A DNA stretch of 64,000 nucleotides from Candidatus Gastranaerophilales bacterium (GTDB taxonomy: Bacteria > Cyanobacteriota > Vampirovibrionia > Gastranaerophilales > Gastranaerophilaceae). Made by a program: the position numbers and the translations under genes. The notes beneath the pieces were generated by a model. It saw nothing but the letters and a program-made list of their open reading frames with translations, had not been told where the DNA came from and made no database searches. Location of the stretch: assembly GCA_947630535.1 (NCBI GenBank), contig CANRHZ010000001.1, forward strand, positions 62,001 through 126,000. The letters are read 5' to 3'. Within the stretch, counting starts at the first letter, position 1; each line of letters opens with the position of its first letter. This document shows positions 1,867 through 27,724 of the stretch, piece after piece.

Positions 1867-2499
1867 TTAATTCTTTTTCATTATTACAAGCTCTCTTGTG
1901 TAGTTTTCCGGCAAAGGAAGTTTGTATGGAATTAATTTATAAAAGCTTAAATTAGGATATTTTTTTATGGCATAATTTAGTTCTTCTTCAACGTTTTTTG
2001 ATTTATAAGAAATAAAGTACCCCCCTTTTTTTAAATGTCTGTCGGATAACTTATAAACGTCCCCGATTTTTCCCACGGCACGATTTAAAATTATATCCGC
2101 ATTTATAATATCAACAGTTTCCGCCCTTCCTGTTATGGGGTATAAGTTATCAAGACTTAAGGCGCACTTTGCATTTTCAATAAATTTAATTTTTTTACCC
2201 GTAGAATCAAGCGCATAAATTTTTATATCAGGGAAAAATACGGATAAAATTAAAGAAGGAAACCCTCCTCCGCAACCGACATCAAGCACAACTTTATTTT
2301 TATTAAATTCACTAAATAAACAAACGGAAAGAGAATCTATAACATGCTTTTCATACAGAACTTTTATATCGTTTTTGCTCATCAAATTTGTATGAGAATT
2401 GTATTCGATAAACATAGTTTTCCAACTTTCAAGTTTATCAAGGGTTGAATTTGATACGTTAAGAGAAAACAATTCAAAAAGTTTATCTTTAATTATCAT
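1867..2499 (-). CDS. rsmG: 16S rRNA (guanine527-N7)-methyltransferase RsmG
   Basis: Methylates G527 of 16S rRNA using S-adenosylmethionine. The 210 residues match the usual length. Seen: the substrate-side motif EYNSHTNLMS, the SAM-binding motif I VLDVGCGGGFPSL, ALDSTGKKIKFIE (acidic residue that would contact the ribose) and the later NADIILNRAVGKI. The start overlaps the end of the upstream ATPase-TPR gene by 11 nt, so the two are probably co-translated. It is convergent with nanK, with a 2-nt gap. Assignment is secure; the linkage to a signalling-type ATPase is not the usual gidA-gidB-parAB context. Confidence 0.93.
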   Translation of the reverse strand: MIIKDKLFELFSLNVSNSTLDKLESWKTMFIEYNSHTNLMSKNDIKVLYEKHVIDSLSVCLFSEFNKNKVVLDVGCGGGFPSLILSVFFPDIKIYALDSTGKKIKFIENAKCALSLDNLYPITGRAETVDIINADIILNRAVGKIGDVYKLSDRHLKKGGYFISYKSKNVEEELNYAIKKYPNLSFYKLIPYKLPLPENYTRELVIMKKN

Positions 2500-4753
2500 A
2501 AAGCTGCTTCATGCCCTTAAAAATGTAATCGCCGAGTTTGATTTTCATGTCGTTAATTCTTGTTAATACCCTTTGCATGTTTTCTTTTGAAGCATTAGCT
2601 CCAAGTATTGATTTAGCTTGAAAGTAACAAATTAAAGCCTGCTCATTTTGCCTCATGTCGTAATAATAATCACCGAGTTCCAATAGAGAAATTGCAATTT
2701 CAAAAGAATTATCGGACATTCTGGCATATTCAAGAGCAAGATTTAAATATTCATACGCTTTTTCAAAATCAAAATTTCTGTAAACTTTTGCTATATTTCT
2801 TACAACATAGTATGAATTTGTATAATTTTCTTCTCTGATGTTTAAATCAAGAGCATAGTTTAAATATTCAATTGCGCCTTCATTGTCGCCCATATCGGCA
2901 AGTATTGTTCCCATATCCGTATATGCGTTTGGCAAAAATTTGGTATTAGAGGAAGTTTTGGAGTATTCAACAGATTTATTGAAATATTCAAGCGCCTCAT
3001 CCGTGTAATCGTTCTCATAATAAAGCGACCCTATTTTATATGCAATTTCAGGAAGCATAATATCGGTTTGCCCGCATGCATTTAGGGTCAGATTGAGCGC
3101 TTCTTTATATTCTTTCATGGAAGCTTTCATATCGTTTTGAGCTTCAAAAAGTTCGCCCAATGCAAATTTAACAGAAGCCTTGCTTGCATCCGATATTTTA
3201 TTTTCATCTTTTATAAGGTCATTTAAGGTATTTAAACTTTTTGAAAAGGAGTATAAATTTTTATATATTTTTGAAATTTCAATTTTATATTTAGCCCAAA
3301 AATCGTAATTTTCTTCTTTATAGCAAATATCGGCAAGCTCTCTATAGTTTACAAGCGCAAGATTGTTGTCATTTAATTTGATTGCAATGTTTGCTATATT
3401 TGTATATATTCTTATGAAATCATCAAGTTTGTTTGCAATTTTTTTAGACTGTTCAAAAAGCGATATTGCTTCCCTGTAGTTAAAGGCGGCCTGTTGTTCT
3501 TCCGCTTCTTTTATAAGGTTATTTAGCTTGGTGTCCGTTTTATTTATTGGTTCATTTTTGATTTCAGAAAAAGCATTTTTTTGACGGGGCTTAATTTCCT
3601 TACCGCCGGTCACAAACCAGTTTTGATTGATGACTTGGGCATTGTAGTTAAATATGGGTTGAATTTTAGTTCTTGCAATTTTAGGGATTTTTTCTTCCAG
3701 ATTGTCCATACAGTTTCTGATGCTTGCCCTTGATAGCCTTAATAACCTGTCTTTAGGACTTTTTTTAAGTTCGTTATCGTATACACCGATAAGATTTTTT
3801 GAAATTTGGTTTCTTTCTTGAAGGGATGTATTATCTTCAAAATATTTTCTAAAATATGATTTTATATAGTAGGTGCCAAAAAATTCAGACACAATAAACT
3901 TTGATACAAGATAGGAAAGTTGTTTAATATCGCCAAGTCCGTATGCTTCAATAAAAGACAGAGGCACATTATGATAAATACAAGACAGGTTATTTAAAAT
4001 GGGGATGTAGTTAGAGGGAATAAGAGAAATTTGCTTTTCGACAAGAAAATCTTCAAATAAATATTCGTCTTTTTTCTGCTTATATTCATCCAAAAAATCG
4101 CTCAAACTAATGCTTATTGAGTCCAAATATAAAAGAGTCATTTTTAAATATAACTCATATCCGCCCGTAACATCATATAATTCTTCAAAAAGCTTTCTTT
4201 CGGCATCATTAAAAATCTGAGATAAAAAGTTTATGCAGTCGTCTTTTTTAATTTTTTCAAATTCGAGCGTATCAATTTTTATCTCTTTATCTTCAAAAAT
4301 TTTAGACTCGGGTTTTCTTGATACAATAATAACCTTTACATTCTCAAATGTAGATATATGGGCCAAAAAATCGGATATTTCTTCGTTATTTTTTACGTTA
4401 TCGAAGTTGTCAATTAAAACAACGGAGGGAAGTTCAAGGTTTTTAAAATAAAAGCTGACTTTTTGTATAAACCCTTCCATAGGATTTTTTTTAAGGGCGA
4501 TAATTTGTTTTAGAGCATACTCTCTGAATGTGTCATAAAAAGAAAGCAAGAAATCGTCGGTTACGGTGTTTTTAAAGCAGATACATTGAAAGTGCAAAAT
4601 GTCGTTTTCATATTCATCTAAAGCTGCTTTTATAACGGAGGACTTTCCGGACCCTGAAAATCCGCTTACAAACAATAAATCCGTGTCGGAATTCAGAAAG
4701 TCATGGATTTTTTGTATATAAGTATTATAAAATTTTGTAAATACATCTTCCAT
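2489..4753 (-). CDS. STAND/AAA-like ATPase with C-terminal TPR repeats
   Basis: A 754-residue protein of unrecognised specific function. The N-terminal P-loop domain has Walker A GFSGSGKS (31-38), Walker B VVLIDNFD (111-118) and a sensor-like VIIVSRKPES shortly after, as in STAND/ORC-like ATPases. A helical middle (about 200-350) is followed by degenerate tetratricopeptide repeats from about residue 420 to the end (motifs such as ALEYFNKSVEYSK, AIEYLNYALDLN, AYEYLNLALEYAR). This layout (nucleotide switch plus TPR sensor) is typical of signal-transducing ATPases such as MalT-like or tetratricopeptide NTPases, but no DNA-binding domain is visible. It overlaps rsmG by 11 nt. The ATG at 4753 has no ribosome binding site but does have a -10-like TAAAAT 7 nt upstream. 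The ATPase-TPR architecture is firm; the role is not. Confidence 0.75.
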   Translation of the reverse strand: MEDVFTKFYNTYIQKIHDFLNSDTDLLFVSGFSGSGKSSVIKAALDEYENDILHFQCICFKNTVTDDFLLSFYDTFREYALKQIIALKKNPMEGFIQKVSFYFKNLELPSVVLIDNFDNVKNNEEISDFLAHISTFENVKVIIVSRKPESKIFEDKEIKIDTLEFEKIKKDDCINFLSQIFNDAERKLFEELYDVTGGYELYLKMTLLYLDSISISLSDFLDEYKQKKDEYLFEDFLVEKQISLIPSNYIPILNNLSCIYHNVPLSFIEAYGLGDIKQLSYLVSKFIVSEFFGTYYIKSYFRKYFEDNTSLQERNQISKNLIGVYDNELKKSPKDRLLRLSRASIRNCMDNLEEKIPKIARTKIQPIFNYNAQVINQNWFVTGGKEIKPRQKNAFSEIKNEPINKTDTKLNNLIKEAEEQQAAFNYREAISLFEQSKKIANKLDDFIRIYTNIANIAIKLNDNNLALVNYRELADICYKEENYDFWAKYKIEISKIYKNLYSFSKSLNTLNDLIKDENKISDASKASVKFALGELFEAQNDMKASMKEYKEALNLTLNACGQTDIMLPEIAYKIGSLYYENDYTDEALEYFNKSVEYSKTSSNTKFLPNAYTDMGTILADMGDNEGAIEYLNYALDLNIREENYTNSYYVVRNIAKVYRNFDFEKAYEYLNLALEYARMSDNSFEIAISLLELGDYYYDMRQNEQALICYFQAKSILGANASKENMQRVLTRINDMKIKLGDYIFKGMKQLYDN

Positions 4754-4789
4754 GTATTTTATTTTAACCGATTTTATGTTATTTATCCA
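4751..4789 (-). promoter_or_regulatory. Promoter abutting the STAND-TPR start (leaderless candidate)
   Basis: On the minus strand TGGATA (4784-4789), a 17-bp spacer and TAAAAT (4761-4766) are followed by 7 nt and the ATG. There is no Shine-Dalgarno sequence, so the transcript would begin at or near the start codon. Confidence 0.45.
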
Positions 4790-4907
4790 GACATAAAAGC
4801 CGATTGATTAATTGTTAATTTTTATTAAGTCCAATTTGTTTTTGATGGCAACAATTTTATTTTTCATGTGTTTTTTAATATGTGTGTGTTAGCCGTGGAG
4901 CATCTTA

Positions 4908-5900
4908 ATGCAGATCGAAAATTCCAAACTAAACAGTATACCTAAAAACTCTTACTTGATTGTAAACAAAGATTTTGATAATGAGGATCATATAATCAAA
5001 AAACGTCCTACCACAGGCGCACGCATAGTTTTAGATAAATTCACAAATGATATCTTTTCTTACGTTCCGAAGGGAATGAAGGGTTCAAAAAACAGCAATT
5101 TTTACGAGTTTTTGTCTTTGGGGCTTATACCTAATTTAACAGGCTCGTTGATGCTCATTTTAATTTCTAACGCACTCAATAACAAATATGGCGGCCAGAA
5201 CACATTCTTTGCAGGCATGAACGGCAAAAAAATGGCGGCAGGGGTTATGCTCTATGCTGCGGGCAAATGGCTTGGAAACAAAATTATAAACAAAGGAATA
5301 GAGGCAAAAACGGGCATTGATATTGAAATGCCTTATAAAAAGATTGTTCATGAACTTCCCGAATATAAAGGGGATAAAAACACGACTTCGGTTGAATTTC
5401 ACAGAGTTTTTGAAAGCACCGATTTTCCCCGTTGGGATTTAATTAACAAACAGGGCGAACACAACAATAACAGATATGAGTATTACGATAAATTGGCCGA
5501 AAAAATGGGATATGAAGGCAAATTAAATGCACCCGATCAGGTGGTTCAGCCAAAAATTAAAGAAGTGCTTGTGAAATCAAGCGCAGCTAAGGCAATTAGT
5601 TCTTACATCTGGGCGGCTCTCGGTGTTGCGATTGCATCACAGGATTCGTTCGGCAAGTTTATGCGCTCGGCCGATAAGCTTTCAATTAAAGATACCATGA
5701 AGCGACTTCCGAAAGACTTATTCAACACAATGAAAGAAAGTGTAACATCACTTTCTAAAACAAAAATGGGCAAAGCCCTTATGGTAGCGGCAACACTATC
5801 AAGTATTTTTGGCATATTTAATTCAACATCAGGCTTTAAAGCCGAAAAAGAAGATAAAAAATCTGCGGTTGATTACACAAAAAATTACATGGAGTTTTAA
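4908..5900 (+). CDS. Membrane-associated protein of unknown function, first gene of the GH13 operon
   Basis: 330 residues, not recognised. Hydrophobic segments lie near residues 71-90, 108-125, 229-246 and 288-306; there is no cleavable signal peptide. The soluble N-terminus (1-65) is polar. A central segment (about 163-202) containing FPRWD and YYDKLAEKMG resembles LPWD...NKVADKMG in the next gene's product, suggesting a shared domain. Translation starts at ATG 4908 behind a GGAG at about 4897. Its stop and the next gene's start share one base (TAATG), so the pair is coupled. The operon continues into two GH13-like genes. Probably a lineage-specific membrane protein; function unknown. Confidence 0.7.
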   Translation: MQIENSKLNSIPKNSYLIVNKDFDNEDHIIKKRPTTGARIVLDKFTNDIFSYVPKGMKGSKNSNFYEFLSLGLIPNLTGSLMLILISNALNNKYGGQNTFFAGMNGKKMAAGVMLYAAGKWLGNKIINKGIEAKTGIDIEMPYKKIVHELPEYKGDKNTTSVEFHRVFESTDFPRWDLINKQGEHNNNRYEYYDKLAEKMGYEGKLNAPDQVVQPKIKEVLVKSSAAKAISSYIWAALGVAIASQDSFGKFMRSADKLSIKDTMKRLPKDLFNTMKESVTSLSKTKMGKALMVAATLSSIFGIFNSTSGFKAEKEDKKSAVDYTKNYMEF

Positions 5901-8359
5901 TGATTAACAATAATCAAAACAATATAATTTTTAAAAGTATGGATCTTCAAAGAAAACTTGAGGACAGACGTGTTTTTGACCAGTTTTTAAATCAAACTCA
6001 ACATGTAACCTGTGATAAACCAAAGGGTCGCCTTGTTAAAGAAACCCCCCTTCAATCGTTTAAAGCAGTATTTACGGACACCGCAAAAGATATAAGCAAT
6101 CTTGGTAAGGCGCTCACAACAGGCAAATCAAATGACCATGAACTCGGTAAAATGAATGATATCGGAATGAAAATGGGCGGTGGGCTTGTTGCTGCGGCAC
6201 TTATGGGCGCAAGAAGCACAAATGCAAAAAAACTTATGGAAGTTATAGGTTTTGGCACATTCTTTACTTCTATGGCTCTGTGGCCAAAACTTGCAATTGA
6301 CCTTCCGACAAAACTTAAATACGGTTTTAATCCTCATCAAAAATATATTGATTCTCAAGGAAGAAAAAAAGAATTCTTCCAGGATAACCAATATCTGCCT
6401 TGGGATGTATGGTCCAAAGAAGATATAAATAAAGTTGCGGACAAAATGGGTATACCTAAAAACATCAAAGACAGAGAACAGTTTACAAAAGAAAAAATGC
6501 GCACAATAGCGCTTCAGGATAATACATTGTGGATGCTAACGGCGGGTTTTGCAACACCTTTATTAACATCTTTAATATGTAACAGAATTGAAGAAGGAAT
6601 AAAAGTACCTGTCGCAAACCGTGATTTGAAAAAACTGCATTCTCAATTCAGCCCCTTATCTTCAGAAGCGGATTATATGGGCGGGCTTATCGAAAAAACC
6701 GTAGCAAATCCCAATGTTTTCCAAAATCAGGATGAAGAATTCGGAGCCCTTATAGAAGAACTTCATTCGGGAAAAATGCCCGCAGATTTCGCTCAAAGGC
6801 TCGGTAAAATATTCAATTTATCATCCGTTACAACAAATCCTTTAATTTCTGAAAACTTAAGGAAAAACGGTGTCGATTGTGCTGACGATTTAATTAAAAA
6901 ACTGTTTTTGGATTCACCCGAATTTTTAAATAACGGTTTTATTGAAAAATTGATTGGCGATGTGCCGGAAAACGCACAAGAAATTGAAAGTGCAAAAAAT
7001 TTATTCAGACAAGCATATAATATGGCAAAATCCGATCCTGACCTTGCAGGCAGAGTCGATATGGATGATATCTTAAAGAATGTATTTTCTCTTGCAAGAA
7101 AAGAAAATAAGGAATGGGCTAAACCTTTAAGATTTGGAACGGAAGGTTTATCAGACGAGCTTAAACTTCTTGCCAAAGCTGAATCGTTACAGAGCAAAGA
7201 AACTCTATCAAGCGGGGCAGACGTATTATCAAATATATATAACGAAACAATCAAGCCTGCACAGGCTCAAATGAGAATTTTGGGAGATAAAATCAAAGTT
7301 CTTGACGGCATCTCGGGCGAAGAATACAACAGAGTTTTAAAAAGCACAATAAAACTTCTCGGTTTTTCGGATAGTGAAATTACACTTTTAAGAAATTCAA
7401 CCGAAGATTTTGGCCCGGAATTTCAGGAATTTGTTACAAATAAAATCAAAAATATTGCACAAAATGAAAAAGATTATCAATCAGTCATAGCAAAACTTGA
7501 AAAAATTCAAGAAAGTGTCGACAGTACAAATATTAAGGGCACAAAAACCACAATCGGCGACGTCTTTAATACTATGATTACTAAAGTAAATACAATACTA
7601 AAGGGTTTAAGCAATATTTCATCCTCTCAATCAGAAGCATATAGCAACTCATCACTAAATACGCTTATTGGAGGAGGCCTAAACAGAAATGAAATAGGCG
7701 CTGCAAGAAGCAATATAACCTCGGTTGAATCCGTTATTACAAGAATGTATAACGCAATTATTCTTGAAAGAAGCATTCAAGACGGCACATTCAAACAAAA
7801 TTGGGCAAGATATGCTATAGAAAACGGACTTGAGGGCAATATTGACGATTTAGGAAGCGAAGAACTTGAAAAATTCTATTCTCTTTGCAGAAAAATAGCT
7901 TGGCAGAGCTCTTATGGTGATGCAATGAACAAACACTATGTCGACGGAAACGGCAGCTTCTTTAAAACCTTAACAGATGCGATATTCCACACTTCATCGG
8001 ATAAAGACAATGTTAAAAACTGGGTTGAAAGGGCAAGAAGCATTTCAAACGAATGTGATTATATTCCGCTTCCCTCGCACACAATGCGTCTTGAAGGAGA
8101 AGGGGCCGAATATATTGGCGAAATGACAAAATCCCATGGCCTTAAATTTGCCGATTTTGGAGAATCTGTTCTGGGTGCATTTAAAAAACAGATAAATCAG
8201 ATGTATAATGATAGAACATGGATGAAAGTCTTTGGCGGGTTAACGGTAGTTCTTCTTGGTGCAACCTTTATATCAAAAATGTTTTTCGGAAAGGTGAAAA
8301 ATGCTCAACTTTATGAAAAACAGGAACAGGTAAATTCTTTTGAGGGCGGAAAAAACTAA
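5900..8359 (+). CDS. Large membrane-anchored protein of unknown function
   Basis: 819 residues, not recognised. The N-terminal third has hydrophobic stretches at about 92-104, 114-136 and 209-227, with LPWDV (166-170) and NKVADKMG between them that echo the preceding gene product. The long middle (about 240-770) is polar, Asn/Glu/Lys-rich and helical, with no recognised fold. A single strong transmembrane segment lies near 775-795 with a basic tail. The segment KKLMEVIG...IDLPT (110-137) resembles KKYASIIG...IDAPLT in the small membrane protein at 26637, pointing to a family present at two loci. It starts within the stop of the previous gene (TAATG) and ends 1 nt before the ATG of the GH13 gene, so all three are probably co-translated. 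Confidence 0.7.
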   Translation: MINNNQNNIIFKSMDLQRKLEDRRVFDQFLNQTQHVTCDKPKGRLVKETPLQSFKAVFTDTAKDISNLGKALTTGKSNDHELGKMNDIGMKMGGGLVAAALMGARSTNAKKLMEVIGFGTFFTSMALWPKLAIDLPTKLKYGFNPHQKYIDSQGRKKEFFQDNQYLPWDVWSKEDINKVADKMGIPKNIKDREQFTKEKMRTIALQDNTLWMLTAGFATPLLTSLICNRIEEGIKVPVANRDLKKLHSQFSPLSSEADYMGGLIEKTVANPNVFQNQDEEFGALIEELHSGKMPADFAQRLGKIFNLSSVTTNPLISENLRKNGVDCADDLIKKLFLDSPEFLNNGFIEKLIGDVPENAQEIESAKNLFRQAYNMAKSDPDLAGRVDMDDILKNVFSLARKENKEWAKPLRFGTEGLSDELKLLAKAESLQSKETLSSGADVLSNIYNETIKPAQAQMRILGDKIKVLDGISGEEYNRVLKSTIKLLGFSDSEITLLRNSTEDFGPEFQEFVTNKIKNIAQNEKDYQSVIAKLEKIQESVDSTNIKGTKTTIGDVFNTMITKVNTILKGLSNISSSQSEAYSNSSLNTLIGGGLNRNEIGAARSNITSVESVITRMYNAIILERSIQDGTFKQNWARYAIENGLEGNIDDLGSEELEKFYSLCRKIAWQSSYGDAMNKHYVDGNGSFFKTLTDAIFHTSSDKDNVKNWVERARSISNECDYIPLPSHTMRLEGEGAEYIGEMTKSHGLKFADFGESVLGAFKKQINQMYNDRTWMKVFGGLTVVLLGATFISKMFFGKVKNAQLYEKQEQVNSFEGGKN

Positions 8360-8360
8360 T

Positions 8361-10214
8361 ATGGAAATGAATTCAAATCAAATTAATTCAAACAATATAA
8401 ATAATACACAAGGACAGGTACCATATACTATGCCCCAACAGAAACCTGCGGGGGCTCAACCTTTATCATATGAAGAAAATTCCGTTGTATACAATGTTCC
8501 TAATGCCCCCATATATGCTCCCGCCCCCGCACAAAAGGGAGTAAGGCCGTTTGTCGGAAGCGAGCTTATGAGAAAGTATATGATAAATCAGGGCAGACAA
8601 ATATCCGAAATCAACAATGTTAACAGTATCCAAACCATAAACAGTAACGGTGTTCAATGGAAGAATAACTTAAGGGAAAATTTAAGAAGCGGAAAAGTTA
8701 ATATGCTTGCGGTTATTCCAAGAACCATGAGCGCAAAAGATACTGACGGTAACGGTTTAATTCAGGGTAATGAAGTAAGAGGAAACTTCATAAATGCCGT
8801 TGAAAGACTTGATGAAATCAAAAAAATGGGTATAAACACCCTTCATATCCTTCCTATTCACCCTACAAGCAAAACAAAGGCTATGGGAACGGCAGGCTCA
8901 CTTTATGCAATGGATGACCCGCTTTCAATTGACCCTAATTTAAAAGACCCCAATACTCCGGGGTCGGTTGAGGACCAGTGTAAATACTTTATTCAGGAAT
9001 GTCATAAAAGAGGAATAAGCGTTATGCTTGACCTTCCAAGTTGTGTTAGCGTCGACTTTGCAAACAAACACCCCGAATTAATGGCATTTGAAAAGGACGG
9101 CTCGGATAAAACCCCCGGCGGTTGGCAAGATATCAGAATGTTTAGAGTTTTTGATGATGAAGCAACAAGAAAACTCAACCCGCACTTACTTGAACTACAT
9201 AAAAAATATGTAGATATGTGTATTGACTTAGGATTTGACGGCATAAGGGCAGACGTTGGCAGAGCAAAACCCGCAGAATTTTGGGACATAATAATTCCTT
9301 ATTCAAGGTCAAAAGACCCTGATTTCGGATGGCTTGCAGAAACCTACACTTATGAAGATGCCTCTCCTCAATTAAATATGCCTCATGATAGACCTATAGA
9401 ACTTATGAAAGCAGGCTTTGACACTTATTACGGACAGTATCACATTTTTGACCAATGGACTAAAGCATCTCAGTTAAGAAACTATGTAAACGAACAAATT
9501 GATATGCAAAAACAGTTTGATGATAAACAGACAAGAACTCTTATTGGTTCGTTTTCAACTCATGACGACCAAAGCCCGATGTTTTATGGCGGCTCTCCGT
9601 GGGTTCAATTTACAAGCATTCTTCAATCCACCCTTCCTCTTTGCAACCCCTATTTTGTAGACGGGGTTCAATCGGGAGATTATTATTTATACCCTTATGA
9701 ACACGCTTATGCACCTGATACTCAAACAGATACCCACGAACTTGTAGTTCATAAAGGCAGAATTGATATCTTTAATCCGTCAAGACAACCCGGCGGCAAA
9801 AACCCAGAGATTGGAAAACAGATTGAAAATATGCTCAACTTAAGAAACGGCCAATACAATGATGTTATAACCAAAGGTTCAACCTGTTGGATTAAGCCGA
9901 GCCCGAATAATGACGAAATAATCTGCTTTGCAAGACAATACGGAAATAAAACCCTTCTTGTTGTCGGGAACAGAAACGTAAATAAAAGAAACAGTGCAAA
10001 AATAAAATTAAGTGACATTAAAGCATCTGACACTCTAAAAGACTTAACTTTGCCATACGGCGAAAAGAGCTATATACAAGCTGAGGACGGTGCACTTAAT
10101 TTAGATTTGGCACCATCAAGAATACATGTTTTTGAGATAAATGCTCCAAATATTGAACAGGACGCATTTGATGTTTCAAAATTTGTAAACGGTACATATA
10201 CAAGAGTCAAATAA
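8361..10214 (+). CDS. GH13 alpha-amylase-like protein with an EF-hand loop, intracellular
   Basis: 617 residues from ATG 8361; an in-frame TTG at 8340 is also open, but the ATG follows the previous stop and has GAGGGCGG upstream. After an Asn/Gln/Pro-rich N-terminus of about 110 residues comes an EF-hand-type loop DTDGNGLIQGNE (127-138), then a GH13 barrel. The barrel shows the DEIKKMGINTLHILPI strand, region II GIRAD with predicted nucleophile D298, region III WLAE with acid E327 and region IV THDD with D402. Region I reads DLPSCV (224-229), so the usual histidine is missing. A beta domain ends the protein. No signal peptide: a substrate such as glycogen inside the cell is inferred. The catalytic triad is visible, but specificity cannot be told. 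It follows two membrane-protein genes and precedes a second GH13 gene. Confidence 0.8.
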   Translation: MEMNSNQINSNNINNTQGQVPYTMPQQKPAGAQPLSYEENSVVYNVPNAPIYAPAPAQKGVRPFVGSELMRKYMINQGRQISEINNVNSIQTINSNGVQWKNNLRENLRSGKVNMLAVIPRTMSAKDTDGNGLIQGNEVRGNFINAVERLDEIKKMGINTLHILPIHPTSKTKAMGTAGSLYAMDDPLSIDPNLKDPNTPGSVEDQCKYFIQECHKRGISVMLDLPSCVSVDFANKHPELMAFEKDGSDKTPGGWQDIRMFRVFDDEATRKLNPHLLELHKKYVDMCIDLGFDGIRADVGRAKPAEFWDIIIPYSRSKDPDFGWLAETYTYEDASPQLNMPHDRPIELMKAGFDTYYGQYHIFDQWTKASQLRNYVNEQIDMQKQFDDKQTRTLIGSFSTHDDQSPMFYGGSPWVQFTSILQSTLPLCNPYFVDGVQSGDYYLYPYEHAYAPDTQTDTHELVVHKGRIDIFNPSRQPGGKNPEIGKQIENMLNLRNGQYNDVITKGSTCWIKPSPNNDEIICFARQYGNKTLLVVGNRNVNKRNSAKIKLSDIKASDTLKDLTLPYGEKSYIQAEDGALNLDLAPSRIHVFEINAPNIEQDAFDVSKFVNGTYTRVK

Positions 10215-10277
10215 ACTAAAGTTTTAATATAAAAATACGATATAAAAATAGGGAAAAAGGAATTCAAGGAGCTTCTT

Positions 10278-13200
10278 GTGGACTTATCAAAAGTAAATAC
10301 CAATAACAGATTAGACAATCTTTCATTTCAGGGTCAGCGAACCGTTAAACATGAAAGCGGAAAACGCTATGTAAGATTAACTCCCCCGCCTTCCGTTAAA
10401 ATTGATAATAAAAATGAGGAGCTCGGAATTGAGCTAATTATGCTTGCCGAAGTGGATAAAAAAGGCGCCAAATACAATTGGAGAAGCGTTGGCGAACCTA
10501 TAAGAGTTAATGTCGACCACGAATTTAAAAACGGCACAAAAACATACTTTGATGTCAATCTTCAAGACTACTGGCTTGATGATGCGGGCGAATACGGATA
10601 CAGATATGTTGTTTACAAAAAAGATAAAAGCCCTCTTGAAGATAAAGAAGTTTTAAGAACATATACAGATTCAATCGGCACCCCGTTTAATGCCAAAGAT
10701 AACGGCAGATTTACCGTGGCATCAACCAGACAGGGAACTCCTGATACTTCAGGTGCCATGTACCATGCTTTTCTTGATTCTTATAATGCGCTTTCAAACA
10801 TTACGAACAATTCTAAAGATTCGGAAAAATCCATTGAAGAATTCAGAAGAACTCACTTCAATAAAGCAGGGGGTACAATCAACGGGGTAACAGAAAAACT
10901 CGATTCCGATTTATCCGAATACAAATACATTATGCTCAACCCCACGGCAGGGGGCGGAGAAGTTTCATCTCACCTTTATCACCCGAAAAATAATTTTAGA
11001 GTACCGGAAGGAATAGGCTCAAAAGAGGACCTTCTTAATTTGCAGGTAGAATGTTTTAAAAGAGGTAAAGGCTATGTTCTGGACGGCGCATTCACATCTC
11101 AAGGTTACGAAGGTTTGCAGTTTAATCATGCCATGAAATGGGGTGAAGATTCGCCCTTTAAATACTGGTTTAAAAACCCCTCTGATGATGCATACAAACT
11201 TGCCGTACTTTCAGATTCCGACAATTCTCATACCGGAATAAGAATAGTTAACCCCTACAAAGCAAAAGGGTATGATTACGACCCCAATATGCCGTCATAC
11301 ATACAATTTTATGATGACAGACTTACGGATAAATCCCAGCTTGAAGATAAAGGGCATCTTATAACCAAATATGCAAAATCAAACACGGATGACCCGTATG
11401 AAATAACCACAAGACAAGATTCCGTTCTTCCGAATTTCTTTGAAATTGACCCCAAAAAACCGCCATACGTCGGTCTTTCGTATGGTCTTTTAAAAGATAT
11501 GAAAGACAAAGACGACATTCTTAGTCCCAAAGGACGTTCATATATTCTTACAAGAACAGGCAATGCAGGCGGATATACAGGATGGGACGGCAACATTGAT
11601 ATGGTTAAGATGAACTTATCCAATCACAGTAATTCTCCAAAATTAATCGAAGGTTGCACTCAGGCAAGAAACCAGATGTTTAATGCTGCAAGATATTGGA
11701 GCGAAGAAACCAGAAATGCAATAATAATGGATGTTGCGGATGAATTAAATAAAAGGTGCGATAACGATACGGAAACAACAGAAGATATAACACCTTCCTC
11801 AAAATCTTATTTAAATGAAATAGAAAAAAAATATAAACTGGACCGTAATACACTGGTAAATATATATAAAAGAATTTTAGCCCAAACTAATGCATCGGAT
11901 GAAGATATGTCGGATTATGCAAACTACAATATAGGCTCCGACAACAAAAGCCCAAAAGACTTTATTCAGGAAAAAGTTTTGAATTTCCCGCTTGAATCTT
12001 TAGATTATTCACCGGAACTTCTTGCGGTATTATCCACTCCATATATTACCCCGAGACCCTCAAGCAAAATTGGCGCAAGCGCAAGCAAAAAAGAGATAAT
12101 GCAAGATGCAATAAATAATACGGTTACAAAGCTTTCTCCATCAATGGAAAAAGCTTATAGAGAACAAATACCCTCAATTATCTCAATGATTTTAAGAAAT
12201 ATACAGGATAAAAATAATTTGCATCTTTTTGATGCAAATAGCGATTCTATAAGCAATATCACTCCCTTGGGAAAATATTTTATAGAAATGGCAACGGATG
12301 ACATTATGAATTACATAATGACAGAATCCCTCTTTTCGGGTGATACATATGCCGATTATAAAAATTCAAAACTGGAATACGGACTTTACGGCAAAAAAAC
12401 CGAAAATGAATCAACGGGAAGATATCTTACCCTAAAACGTCTTTTACCCGAAGGCGCAAGAAATGCGGAAGAAGAAGCAAATAAGGTTGCAAAAATGGCA
12501 TCCGACGGAATGCAAAAAATTATAAATAAAGGAAAAGACGAAGAAACGTTTAACGAATTTTGCAAATTTTTGTCCGACAAATACCTCAAATACAACCTTG
12601 CACAATACAAAATGGCAGAAGCGGTTGTTGACCAAACTGGTGCGGGATTAAACTGGAGGTTTGATGCTGCAAAAGACGTCGGTGATTGGGATGAAGCAAG
12701 ACAGGGCACTTTATCATCAGAAGCCGTTTGGGATGATGTTATAAGTTTTTGGACACCTTTTGTTTCCGAATTAAGAAAGGTTAACCCCTCATCTTATGTC
12801 GTTGCGGAAGTTACTTCGCTTGGCGAATTTAACAATTTTAACTGGGGAAAATATGATAATCAGGACAAAGCGGAAAATGCTTTCTATCAAAAAACAGGGG
12901 CAACGACAGGAAGTAACTATTCCACATTCTTTGGTCTATACCCAAAACTATTCGGTAAGAATGTTGAAGAAGGTAACATAGACAACTACCGTTCCATATA
13001 CAATTTTATGTACAGGGCCCAAGACTTTATCCAACCCGGCGATTATAAAGGACATTGCCCGAGCGAATTTATTTTGGGAAGCCATGTATTTTTAGATAAC
13101 CATGACAAACCGAGAGCAGCACACCTTATGGCAGTTGATGCAAAATTGTTCTGGTCTGATTTTCAGGATTGGAACCATAAGCTCGATAAAGACCATATAT

Positions 13201-14420
13201 CACGTGCCGAAAAAGTATTAGATAGACCTTATAACGACAATATGAGCTCAAAAGCGGTTGCAGTTGCAGAAAAGTATCTTGAATATTTTGATAAAGCGGC
13301 ATCGGAAGTCGGATTGAGTCAGGATAAAAAAGAAATAATCAAAAAAGCAATTAAACACCTTGCAAACGGTTATAAATATAAAGCCGCAACTTCAAACCCG
13401 AATGATGCATCCTATAAAAGAGCAGACGCATTTGGAAGCACACCGTTTGAAATTACCGCTCCGCACGTAATGGAGCAGGCTTGTGCTATGGGATTAAAGA
13501 TTGAAAATTTAACCTCAAGAAAAATACTTGACAGTGTGCTTGAAAAAATGAGAGCGCCATATATAAGCAAAATGATAGCAATTAATGAACTTGCAACGGG
13601 TACAGTCGGCATAATGACAACATTTGCAGGGGATGAATTTGCGCAAACGGGTTCCGAAACAAAGTCTAAAAACTTTGAAGTAGGGTGCAGAAATGTTGTT
13701 CGTCACGATTGGATTAATGAAAATCCCAAAAAAGACGTTATAGACTTTTATAACAGATTGGACCAAACAAAGGCATTTGCAAAATCAAAAGGCGCAAGCG
13801 CACTTTCAAACGGTTCTCCCGTCATAATATTCCCTGATGTGGTTTCTCTTGCAACAAAAGATGAAATTATAAACGGCTTAAAACAGGTGGGCGAAGATAA
13901 TCTTAAAGATGTTTGCAGGTTTACAGGCAAAAACAGTCAGGACGAAATTATAGCCGAACTTCAAAAGATGGAAGAAGGCGACATTAAACAAAAAGTTAAA
14001 GAAAATATCCGAAGAATTGCTTCCAAAGACAAAAATACGGGAAGAACAAGGTGGGTATTATCAAAAATCGTTCCCGATAAAGCTGAAACCGGAGCAATAT
14101 TAAAATATAACGATAAAGGCGAAAATGTAATTACAATGGTTACAAATGCTTTTATACCTAAAGACCCCCAAAAAGTTTCAGGACTTGTAGACAATGCAGA
14201 CGCTCCTTTTATTTCAGATATCGAATTAAAAGATGAGGAGGGCAATTTAATTGCAAGAACCGGAACCGTATTTGAAAAAATGACCTATGACAAGAAAAAA
14301 AATAAATATGTTCCTGACGGTGTATTCTTATATAATAAAAACGGTACACTAATATCTGCCAAAGGGGAAAATTCAAAACTCGATTCTACGGTCACTTATT
14401 TTGTAAAAAAGAGCCATTAA
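10278..14420 (+). CDS. Very large, divergent GH13 alpha-amylase-like protein
   Basis: 1380 residues from GTG 10278, 7 nt behind AAGGA. An N-terminal beta-sandwich-like region (about 20-130) precedes a split barrel. Region I is VLDGAF (D269, with Ser at the usual histidine position), followed by an insertion of several hundred residues. Then come region II LNWRFDAAKD (nucleophile D796), region III VVAEVTSLGEF (E844) and region IV FLDNHDKPR (D943). Ordinary GH13 enzymes have roughly a hundred residues between regions I and II; here there are over 500. The end (about 1250-1380) looks like a beta domain. No signal peptide is seen; the N-terminus carries NNRLDNLSFQG. It is the last gene of the operon before a strong terminator. 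Active glycosidase or transglycosidase is likely from the intact triad; the substrate is unknown. Confidence 0.78.
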   Translation: MDLSKVNTNNRLDNLSFQGQRTVKHESGKRYVRLTPPPSVKIDNKNEELGIELIMLAEVDKKGAKYNWRSVGEPIRVNVDHEFKNGTKTYFDVNLQDYWLDDAGEYGYRYVVYKKDKSPLEDKEVLRTYTDSIGTPFNAKDNGRFTVASTRQGTPDTSGAMYHAFLDSYNALSNITNNSKDSEKSIEEFRRTHFNKAGGTINGVTEKLDSDLSEYKYIMLNPTAGGGEVSSHLYHPKNNFRVPEGIGSKEDLLNLQVECFKRGKGYVLDGAFTSQGYEGLQFNHAMKWGEDSPFKYWFKNPSDDAYKLAVLSDSDNSHTGIRIVNPYKAKGYDYDPNMPSYIQFYDDRLTDKSQLEDKGHLITKYAKSNTDDPYEITTRQDSVLPNFFEIDPKKPPYVGLSYGLLKDMKDKDDILSPKGRSYILTRTGNAGGYTGWDGNIDMVKMNLSNHSNSPKLIEGCTQARNQMFNAARYWSEETRNAIIMDVADELNKRCDNDTETTEDITPSSKSYLNEIEKKYKLDRNTLVNIYKRILAQTNASDEDMSDYANYNIGSDNKSPKDFIQEKVLNFPLESLDYSPELLAVLSTPYITPRPSSKIGASASKKEIMQDAINNTVTKLSPSMEKAYREQIPSIISMILRNIQDKNNLHLFDANSDSISNITPLGKYFIEMATDDIMNYIMTESLFSGDTYADYKNSKLEYGLYGKKTENESTGRYLTLKRLLPEGARNAEEEANKVAKMASDGMQKIINKGKDEETFNEFCKFLSDKYLKYNLAQYKMAEAVVDQTGAGLNWRFDAAKDVGDWDEARQGTLSSEAVWDDVISFWTPFVSELRKVNPSSYVVAEVTSLGEFNNFNWGKYDNQDKAENAFYQKTGATTGSNYSTFFGLYPKLFGKNVEEGNIDNYRSIYNFMYRAQDFIQPGDYKGHCPSEFILGSHVFLDNHDKPRAAHLMAVDAKLFWSDFQDWNHKLDKDHISRAEKVLDRPYNDNMSSKAVAVAEKYLEYFDKAASEVGLSQDKKEIIKKAIKHLANGYKYKAATSNPNDASYKRADAFGSTPFEITAPHVMEQACAMGLKIENLTSRKILDSVLEKMRAPYISKMIAINELATGTVGIMTTFAGDEFAQTGSETKSKNFEVGCRNVVRHDWINENPKKDVIDFYNRLDQTKAFAKSKGASALSNGSPVIIFPDVVSLATKDEIINGLKQVGEDNLKDVCRFTGKNSQDEIIAELQKMEEGDIKQKVKENIRRIASKDKNTGRTRWVLSKIVPDKAETGAILKYNDKGENVITMVTNAFIPKDPQKVSGLVDNADAPFISDIELKDEEGNLIARTGTVFEKMTYDKKKNKYVPDGVFLYNKNGTLISAKGENSKLDSTVTYFVKKSH

Positions 14421-14435
14421 TATAAAACAATTAAT

Positions 14436-14460
14436 AAAAGCCTGAAAAATTCAGGCTTTT
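14436..14460. terminator. Bidirectional intrinsic terminator
   Basis: An 11-bp perfect stem (AAAAGCCTGAA / TTCAGGCTTTT) with a 3-nt loop lies between the convergent GH13 gene and the SH3-like gene. The A and T runs on both flanks suit termination in both directions. Confidence 0.9.
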
Positions 14461-15113
14461 TATCTTAAATCAGGAAAAGCGATAATTGAGCCGTTATCCA
14501 ATCGCCACTTTAACCATCCGGTTTTTGTTTCGCCATCATAGGTGGTTATTTTAACAAGCATCCAATCTTTGCTTATAAGCCATAAGGAAGTATGTTTGGG
14601 GAAAGAAAATTCATCCACTTTTGTGCTTTTAATATCGGATGAAGAATATAGAACTTTGTTTTTAGGGTTAATATTCCGAAATAAATATATACCATACTTT
14701 CTGCCGTACAAATTGAAAAACTCGCTCCAGCTCATATAGTCAATTTTTTCGGTTTTTTTTATCCAGCCGAACAGTTTCATTTTTTGATTGTAACAAACGT
14801 AATACCAATCGTCCGTATCGTATTCAACAGGCATTAACATTATCTTTTTTTCATTAGATACCGCAAGAAAAGTGTTTTCTATTTCACTATATGGTACGGA
14901 TTTTTCTCTAACAATGATATTACCGTTATCAAGAGTAACGGAAGCTATTACATTGGCATTATCATTATCCGAATCATATATTAAGACACTGTCATCAAGA
15001 GAAATTAAGCCGTTTCCGTAATAAAAGGACGGATTAACATAAGCAGGCATATAATCTGCAAATGCGACAGTTGTTGACAAGATAATAAAAAGTAAGATAA
15101 AAAGTTTTTTCAT
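14460..15113 (-). CDS. Secreted SH3-like domain protein
   Basis: 217 residues with a signal peptide (MKKLFILLFIILSTTVAFA, cleavage after about residue 19). The mature part has beta-rich segments of the bacterial SH3 type: DSDNDNANVIASVTLDNGN, DTDDWYYVCYNQKMKLFGWI, and TSLWLISKDWMLVKI followed by TGWLKWRLDNGS. Such domains usually bind peptidoglycan or other envelope partners. The gene is monocistronic and divergent from rpoB. The ATG at 15113 has no ribosome binding site but a perfect TATAAT 7 nt upstream. Export and SH3-like repeats are fairly clear; the ligand is unknown. Confidence 0.65.
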   Translation of the reverse strand: MKKLFILLFIILSTTVAFADYMPAYVNPSFYYGNGLISLDDSVLIYDSDNDNANVIASVTLDNGNIIVREKSVPYSEIENTFLAVSNEKKIMLMPVEYDTDDWYYVCYNQKMKLFGWIKKTEKIDYMSWSEFFNLYGRKYGIYLFRNINPKNKVLYSSSDIKSTKVDEFSFPKHTSLWLISKDWMLVKITTYDGETKTGWLKWRLDNGSIIAFPDLR

Positions 15114-26636: not shown

Positions 26637-27179
26637 TTGAAAGTTTCAACAATAAACAATAATTTTTCGACTCAAAAATTCACAGGCTTTGATGCTGCGG
26701 GAGTTTTAAGAAAAGCTTCCAATATAAACAGTTGGCAGCAAAGAGCTGTGCTCGGGCTTGCTGCCATTACCCTTCAACCCATGATAGATTTAAGAAATAA
26801 AGGTGTTGATGAACAAACAAGAAAAGTTTCCGCAAACAGAAGTTTTGCAAAAGGTTTAATTGGCGCCATGACGGGTGTTGCCGTCAGAGGCGGATGTATG
26901 AAAGCCATTGAGTGCGGATTTAAAAATGAAAAACTTGCGGATAAATTCTCAAAAATAGTGTCTGAAGAAAAAACACAAGCTGCAATTCAAAAAACCAAAG
27001 ACTATATTAAAAACGGAGGCGGAGCAAAGAAATATGCTTCCATTATAGGTACTGTTATTGCAATGGGTGTTATGCTATTTACCAACTTCTTGATTGATGC
27101 ACCTTTAACAAACGCTCTTACAAACAAATTAAATAAAAAATACGAAGAAACACCCGATAGCAAAGGAGGGGCTCAATAA
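26637..27179 (+). CDS. Small membrane protein of unknown function
   Basis: 180 residues from TTG 26637 behind AAGAAGG. Polar, Asn-rich N-terminus with KFTG (14-17), then hydrophobic segments near 37-50, 71-88 and 134-153. The C-terminal segment KKYASIIG (131-138) followed by LIDAPLT (152-158) resembles a stretch in the large protein at 5900 (KKLMEVIG ... AIDLPT). Its stop shares one base with the next gene's ATG (TAATG), exactly as in the 4908-5900 pair. I do not recognise the family; it appears lineage-specific and is probably an inner-membrane protein. Confidence 0.65.
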   Translation: MKVSTINNNFSTQKFTGFDAAGVLRKASNINSWQQRAVLGLAAITLQPMIDLRNKGVDEQTRKVSANRSFAKGLIGAMTGVAVRGGCMKAIECGFKNEKLADKFSKIVSEEKTQAAIQKTKDYIKNGGGAKKYASIIGTVIAMGVMLFTNFLIDAPLTNALTNKLNKKYEETPDSKGGAQ

Positions 27180-27724
27180 TGTCATTTGCCGATAGTGCCT
27201 CCAAACTGGCAGGAAAATTCCTAAGATATTCAAAAGACCATAACGGTATGTTTTTGTTCGGGTCTGCCGCAACATGCTGGTTTATGGCATCTTTAGCTCA
27301 GACTATCGGTCTTATAACAAATAAAAAAATCGGAAAAGAAGAAAAGAAGTTTTTAGTTCCGCAAGAAATTTTAGACGGCACATTCAATATCGCAACCTAC
27401 GCAGCAGTGACGCTTCCTCTTATGGGGGCTGCAAAAATGGCTGCCGGAAAATCTTTCCCTTCTGACAAACAAGTGGTTGAAGGCGCAAAAACTATTGCCG
27501 CTATAGCAGGCGGAGTTATATCAAGCAACATTATCACTCCCTTGTTAAGAAATAAATCGGGTGTTATTGTAAAAAAAATCATGGAAGAAAAAAATATAAC
27601 TCCTCCACCCGCAAATATATATGACGGCAAAACTTTCCCCAATTTCAAACAACGTCCTATGACTATGAAATCCTATATTAATTTTACAAAAAATATGCCG
27701 ATGTCAGGCTCTCTTAAAATTTAA
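27179..27724 (+). CDS. Small membrane protein of unknown function, coupled partner
   Basis: 181 residues; ATG 27179 follows GGAGGGG. Hydrophobic segments lie near 24-45, 66-90 and 104-124, separated by a basic loop (TNKKIGKEEKKF) and a Lys-rich C-terminal tail. There is no signal peptide. It overlaps the previous gene by one base, so the two products are likely made in similar amounts and may interact. It is convergent with the short gene at 27726 with almost no gap. Function unknown. Confidence 0.65.
   Translation: MSFADSASKLAGKFLRYSKDHNGMFLFGSAATCWFMASLAQTIGLITNKKIGKEEKKFLVPQEILDGTFNIATYAAVTLPLMGAAKMAAGKSFPSDKQVVEGAKTIAAIAGGVISSNIITPLLRNKSGVIVKKIMEEKNITPPPANIYDGKTFPNFKQRPMTMKSYINFTKNMPMSGSLKI

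Follow-up and report, generated by a model that had tools for sequence, protein, structure and literature searches.

Why would two GH13 enzymes that lack an apparent export signal be encoded in one tight run of genes with two membrane proteins? The question is raised by positions 4908–14420 of a 64,000-nucleotide stretch of DNA, referred to below as the window, from a Candidatus Gastranaerophilales bacterium (assembly GCA_947630535.1, contig CANRHZ010000001.1, positions 62,001 to 126,000 of the forward strand; the host genome assembly measures 1.85 Mb). Four genes, designated A to D, occupy this region. The explanation favoured here for the whole, and held to be fairly probable, is that A-B-C, together with D in part of the lineage, would constitute a system that handles alpha-glucan at the cytoplasmic side of the cell membrane. 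The four genes, with the evidence on which each description is based, are as follows (ORF, open reading frame).

4908–5900, plus strand: gene A, a membrane protein of 330 residues with four hydrophobic segments (ORF, hydropathy, match to the profile of B)
5900–8359, plus strand: gene B, a membrane protein of 819 residues (ORF, hydropathy, structural model, natural fusions to C)
8361–10214, plus strand: gene C, a GH13 enzyme of 617 residues with an N-terminal tail rich in Gln, Asn and Pro (PF00128, invariant residues, profile match to 4gkl)
10278–14420, plus strand: gene D, a GH13 protein of 1380 residues, of the neopullulanase/cyclomaltodextrinase type with long insertions (profile match to 1sma, invariant residues)

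Gene order and joint absence

The ORF coordinates agree with the first-pass annotation of this DNA, which had described three genes that overlap or are one nucleotide apart and a fourth after 63 nucleotides. The TAA of A (5898–5900) overlaps the ATG of B by one nucleotide, base 5900, and a single nucleotide separates the stop codon of B (8357–8359) from the ATG of C at 8361; an alternative in-frame TTG start for C, at 8340, would overlap B. D begins with a GTG at 10278, preceded by an AAGGAG box, and the gap between C and D is 63 nucleotides. This spacing suggests that A to D are co-transcribed.

The closest named relatives of C, among the best 80 of 380 loci found, come from metagenome-assembled genomes of Candidatus Gastranaerophilales, an order that the NCBI taxonomy places under Candidatus Melainabacteria; these bacteria are relatives of the cyanobacteria that are uncultured and do not photosynthesise. 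Of these 80 named loci, 78 have B next to C and 75 have A next to B, and in 47 D stands directly after C. The exceptions to A/B adjacency are accounted for by contig ends or by an over-long ORF call (in locus L098 the start of C is set too far upstream), and the spacing within A-B-C is very tight or overlapping in nearly all of these loci. Some of them lie on the same contigs as loci bearing genome handles (for example L098 and G008:C22), and the two sets are not summed.

Presence and absence follow the same pattern. Among 38 genomes, comprising the host and its relatives, A is found in 31, B in 32 and D in 31; 36 contain either C or one of its paralogues. One genome, G001, was dropped from the count of joint losses as its assembly also lacks rpoB. 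In the remaining 37, B is present in 32, and of these 31 harbour the operon-type C and 31 a match to D, which in G025 is fragment-like only; G012 forms the exception, with an assembly that is 75% complete and a gene B that extends past the end of a contig. All four genes are missing from the other five genomes (G019, G023, G029, G031 and G034). With G025 scored as lacking D, the contrast of 30/32 with 0/5 gives a Fisher p of 4.8e-5, a value that ignores phylogeny. Co-occurrence in relatives, on which the first-pass annotation had made its operon depend, is thus borne out by B-C adjacency as well as by the joint absences.

The notion of an operon of four genes stands for this genus and for some other lineages. 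Elsewhere D is unlinked, or divergent as in G037, where it is placed ahead of A, and for this reason A-B-C counts as the constant core, with which D is more loosely associated.

Natural fusions of B and C

The unit extends beyond the order. B was detected in 111 of the 194 genomes of the class that were searched, including 13 from families f9 and f15, which lie outside the order. From twelve of these 13 genomes 13 loci were retrieved, all with the order A-B-C (in L184 the contig ends within C), and D is located divergently beside A in seven of them. In a broader sample of 292 genomes of the phylum, three matches to B came from outside the class (E 6.8e-5 to 1.7e-4), and these are taken as chance.

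In three of the loci outside the order, L179, L180 and L181, which represent three genera, B and C form one uninterrupted ORF of 1030, 1082 and 986 residues, respectively. In these ORFs the match to the B profile takes in the N-terminal part and the stretch leading to the last hydrophobic segment, and the match to the C profile begins immediately behind it, with independent E-values for the C domain of 3.4e-111, 4.2e-106 and 1.1e-119. An assembly error is an unlikely source, as the genome from which L179 derives (G039) is a single contig. These natural fusions directly support the tethering of C to the membrane, which is the part of the earlier proposal of a membrane-tethered glycan system that is now well supported; its substrate and its sidedness are matters of inference. 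C is placed on the cytoplasmic side because the free form of the protein has no apparent export signal.

The fusions also bear on the idea that the gene order is kept for expression alone, with C and D acting as soluble cytoplasmic amylases and A and B fulfilling an unrelated role in the membrane. The frequent unlinking of D would suit this idea. It is rendered very unlikely by the three fusions, by the tight or overlapping A-B-C spacing and by the five relatives that lack all four genes.

The membrane proteins A and B

Orthologue alignments were used for the analyses of all four proteins. They omit two of 31 sequences for A (L048, L072), two of 32 for B (L072 and the contig-cut L054), two of 31 for C (L072 and the cut L045) and two of 22 for D (L072 and the cut L074); a C-like gene in L082, scoring below 450 bits, was excluded as a paralogue.

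A profile built from 29 A orthologues aligns with one built from 30 B orthologues along 201 columns (probability 97.9 and E 4.7e-13 in hhalign), and A and B are therefore paralogous in that domain; the segment that the first reading of the locus had seen as shared between the two membrane proteins is a homologous one. In both families the averaged hydropathy has four maxima, at 77, 118, 235 and 299 in A (29 orthologues) and at 94, 124, 218 and 787 in the orthologue mean of B. B begins with an A-like domain, continues with about 500 residues of helices and ends with a C-terminal hydrophobic helix at 757–794; this long helical stretch ahead of the final hydrophobic peak distinguishes it from its paralogue.

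AlphaFold models of both proteins are of moderate confidence. That of A (predicted local distance difference test, pLDDT, 74.6; predicted template modelling score, pTM, 0.68) is all-helical except for two short strands, and that of B (pLDDT 78.4, pTM 0.68) is nearly all-helical. Neither protein matches a Pfam or NCBIfam model above cut-off, and neither model has a PDB match at E<=0.001 in Foldseek. The best VIA-align scores are Z 7.1 for A (root-mean-square deviation 5.2, 120 aligned residues) and Z 7.1 for B (5.6, 196 aligned), scores that may mean nothing for helical models. Structure searches returned chance-level matches only, and a known fold or function for A and B was not adopted; kinship of A with V-ATPases or bacterial dynamins was dropped (VIA Z <=6.2, Foldseek E >=0.14). 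None of the family libraries consulted represents the A/B family.

A sliding window of 19 residues (mean Kyte–Doolittle hydropathy of at least 1.0) finds no hydrophobic N-terminus in any of the four proteins, in accordance with the earlier statement that A to D lack signal peptides. The first window that reaches this value begins with residue 68 of A, residue 115 of B and residue 1099 of D, and C has no such window at all. Around the last helix of B, the count of Lys and Arg is 3.93 before and 4.03 after, and that of Asp and Glu 0.70 before and 2.23 after. With positive charge on both flanks, charge-based topology gives no decisive pointer to the side on which C lies. Four spans in B would fit if both of its ends lie inside.

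Two paralogues with four hydrophobic segments each could also be pictured as a maltodextrin channel or carrier, with C and D digesting the incoming sugar in a vectorial import and hydrolysis. Genes of the major facilitator superfamily (MFS) or sugar-transport type adjoin D in L179, L180, L181, L187 and L188, five of the seven f9 loci in which D is adjacent, an arrangement that might be taken to favour transport. The same MFS genes would already supply transport, A and B resemble no transporter family and lack a fold match, and this alternative is accordingly considered quite unlikely. A role in anti-phage defence was also discarded: A, B and D match no PADLOC model, C has a weak match to a GlgB-named model (E 3.7e-4) and the neighbouring NTPase gene at 2489–4753 matches two TPR models weakly.

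The GH13 enzymes C and D

Sequence comparison places C and D as divergent members of GH13. C matches PF00128 above the gathering score (25.9 versus 22 bits), and its residues R296, D298, E327, H401 and D402 are invariant in 29 of 29 orthologues. They are retained in 11 of the 12 orthologues taken from different families of the class; the exception, L182, differs at 401 and 402 in an alignment to which the sequence was added. The gene concerned (L182:9599-11227) is part of an additional A-B-C set, without fusion, carried by genome G061 and apparently lacks the His-Asp of region IV; it is possibly a non-catalytic copy or an alignment slip. Among solved structures the C orthologue profile matches 4gkl best (E 8.6e-27), and it also matches the maltosyltransferase 1gju (5.8e-23) and GlgE entries. 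C departs from the usual GH13 pattern in conserved sequence region I (CSR-I), where the customary NH is replaced: Cys228 is invariant (29/29) and is followed by Ala or Val in 26 of 29 sequences, so that the specificity of C may be unusual. The residue before the nucleophile in CSR-II is Ala in 26 orthologues and Val, Ser and Ile in one each, and Cys in none of the 29.

A paralogue of C in the host genome (G000:C36:7598-9082; L088:4605-6182, minus strand) is 38% identical and has a hydrophobic start resembling a signal peptide. At the thresholds applied, neither Pfam nor NCBIfam has a model that fits it. Its relatives occur in most of the genomes of family f1 that were searched, and even G019, without the operon, has one.

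The D orthologue profile finds maltogenic amylase, cyclomaltodextrinase and neopullulanase structures, 1sma being the best (E 4.9e-25). Taken as a single sequence, D stays below the cut-off of every Pfam model and gives no PF00128 row; some orthologues (G026, G030 and G013) match PF00128 above cut-off. R794, D796, E844 and N941-H942-D943 are invariant in 20 of 20 orthologues, and together with the invariant residues of C they confirm that two proteins of the run bear GH13 catalytic residues, as first annotated. The N-terminal tail of D contains the motif F17-x-G19, whose Phe and Gly are likewise invariant (20/20). In seven of seven distant orthologues the catalytic R, D, E, H and D and the F and G of the tail are all kept, and N941 reads Ser, giving SHD.

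Poorly conserved N-terminal tails ending in F-x-G/A or F-G recur in D, in branching/TreZ-like enzymes and in GT5-like enzymes (window 10278–10340; L091:2446, L093:4469, L094:1086, L186:2435). At 26637–27724 of the window, two small overlapping genes encode proteins of 180 and 181 residues with hydrophobic stretches, and the first has a D-like N-terminal tail, QKFTGFD. F-x-G/A was considered as a genome-wide address tag and rejected. In a sample of ORFs from the host genome it shows no enrichment: the first 60 residues contain it in 24 of 425 ORFs and the following two bins in 17/403 and 16/343, with a shuffle mean of 19. An apparent enrichment in a mixed set selected around these genes, 58/451 in the first 45 residues and then 17/451, 25/407 and 18/369, comes from a set biased by the D family.

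Substrate and genomic context

Alpha-glucan is the likeliest class of substrate on account of both the glucan-type neighbours of the operon and the glucan genes of the host genome, and a glucan role is further supported by the closest solved relatives of C and D, which degrade or transfer alpha-glucans. The neighbours in question include the MFS or sugar-transport-type gene beside D in five f9 loci, and a GT5-like synthase adjoins C in L186 and L187, both from one genus. In family f7 a branching/TreZ-like enzyme comes after D in L072 (by NCBIfam) and in L069 (by homology). The other neighbours in the f9 loci are unrelated: amino-acid permeases, RNA polymerase, HSP20 and MurJ. The host genome encodes glgA (contig C17), a GlgX-like protein (C10), two branching/TreZ-like enzymes (C2 and C16), a GT5-like protein (C65) and, on contig C6, a TreS-like protein with a hydrophobic N-terminus. 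The available portions of three papers on the group leave the operon genes unnamed; two of these papers state the use of glycogen or starch and one a potential for glycogen storage (PMC4040986, PMC3787301, PMC5877343).

A different substrate is envisaged if the GH13 pair acts as transglycosylase or hydrolase in the synthesis of an envelope glycan or glycolipid at the inner leaflet, and not on a storage glucan. Such a role would account for the membrane location and for the operon in genomes where glgA falls below the cut-off, and the replaced NH of CSR-I, with its hint of unusual specificity, could be read in the same direction. In several family-f1 genera (L051, L056, L057, L060, L062 and L063) A is preceded by putative uppP-like genes and putative genes of KDO synthesis (the KDO-phosphate pathway). 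Against this, the operon is generally not flanked by envelope genes in other families of the class, although MurJ is next to C in L188, and the nearest relatives of both enzymes work on alpha-glucans. Envelope synthesis is hence judged unlikely, and an alpha-glucan is retained as the favoured substrate.

Comparison with known systems

The best solved relative of C by profile is 4gkl, presumably the GH13_48 maltogenic amylase AmyB of Thermotoga neapolitana. AmyB is not known to have a membrane partner. According to a title cited in PMC11239784, AmyB is intracellular; the same source gives as marks of GH13_48 a Cys directly before the CSR-II nucleophile and an NH at the end of CSR-I. C differs in both, lacking the Cys in 29 of 29 orthologues and having Cys in place of the CSR-I NH, and membership of GH13_48 was rejected.

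D resembles the neopullulanase, cyclomaltodextrinase and maltogenic amylase group (1sma, 1ea9 and 1j0h), presumably GH13_20, in its best solved relatives and its intact catalytic residues. It differs from that group in being more than twice as long, in its large insertions ahead of the nucleophile Asp and in its partnership with A-B-C.

The operon as a whole recalls the amylosome of Ruminococcus bromii, which gathers GH13 enzymes in a cell-attached assembly. The amylosome is secreted and displayed on the cell surface, whereas the operon proteins have no signal peptide visible to the sliding window; no cohesin or dockerin Pfam model was matched in A to D at E<=1, and identity with an amylosome was rejected. 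The run shares cytoplasmic alpha-glucan metabolism with the canonical glg operon and differs from it in having no glgA, glgB, glgC or glgP, glgA being on another contig (C17). No description of the operon was found in the accessible parts of the open-access literature searched for the group and for membrane-anchored cytoplasmic GH13 enzymes.

Flanking regions and regulation

Two further features delimit the run.

4754–4907, no strand assigned: divergent intergenic region between the ATGs of the gene at 2489–4753 and gene A, the expected site of the operon promoter
14436–14460, no strand assigned: hairpin terminator separating D from the convergent gene 14460–15113, with a stem of 11 bp, from the minus-strand list

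The terminator that had been described as closing the run is present as a hairpin with a run of T. It is listed on the minus strand only, because the T-run of the plus strand falls inside the stem, and it probably serves as terminator both for D and for the convergent gene of 217 amino acids (14460–15113). The upstream neighbour of A (2489–4753, minus strand, divergent) encodes a nucleoside triphosphatase (NTPase) with tetratricopeptide (TPR) repeats. The protein has a weak match to the TPR of MalT and its gene remains next to A in loci of the same genus; it is a possible candidate for a regulator. The promoter scan found no sigma-70-like site on the plus strand of 4754–4907.

A proposed alpha-glucan system at the cytoplasmic membrane

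In the proposed mechanism, A and B, as related multi-span proteins, would form a platform in the membrane, presumably as a complex. The C-terminal hydrophobic helix of B would put C at the membrane, as a single polypeptide in some relatives. D, the second and larger GH13 enzyme, would trim or debranch the glucan as a functional, perhaps co-located, partner. The system would operate as an enzyme scaffold, and the four proteins together would mobilize a stored glucan, either glycogen or maltodextrin derived from it, perhaps in a manner coupled to sugar uptake.

A number of observations weigh against this reading. D does not follow C in 33 of the 80 named loci as fetched and is unlinked in many relatives (in G015 D lies at C1:187743 and A at C1:296033). 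None of the 80 named loci contains a B-C fusion. In family f7 (G028 and G033, both 99% complete) the operon is present with glgA below the NCBIfam cut-off and weaker GT5-like matches only, so that the substrate there may be something other than classic glycogen; conversely, glgA is found in genomes that have no operon. No operon promoter was located: promoter-like sites in the region number 24 against 30.5 in shuffled sequences, with no excess. Lastly, the charges slightly favour the side upstream of the last helix of B as the inner one, and sidedness is unproven.

A bolder version of the alpha-glucan system can be formulated, in which A and B would represent a novel family of scaffold proteins in an undescribed membrane-bound metabolon. 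C would be recruited through the helix of B, and D along with branching/TreZ-like and GT5-like enzymes through a hydrophobic-x-F-x-Gly/Ala tail, so that glucan would be both built and degraded at the membrane. This extension is regarded as doubtful.

The enzymes of bacterial glycogen metabolism are commonly viewed as soluble proteins. A family of membrane proteins tied to GH13 enzymes would mean a new placement of storage-sugar metabolism in the cell. The A-B-C unit is widespread in a large class whose members live in the gut and in the environment, and two membrane-protein families without known relatives gain a first testable function. It is probable that glucose polymers are handled in these bacteria at the inner side of the membrane, in a previously undescribed way.

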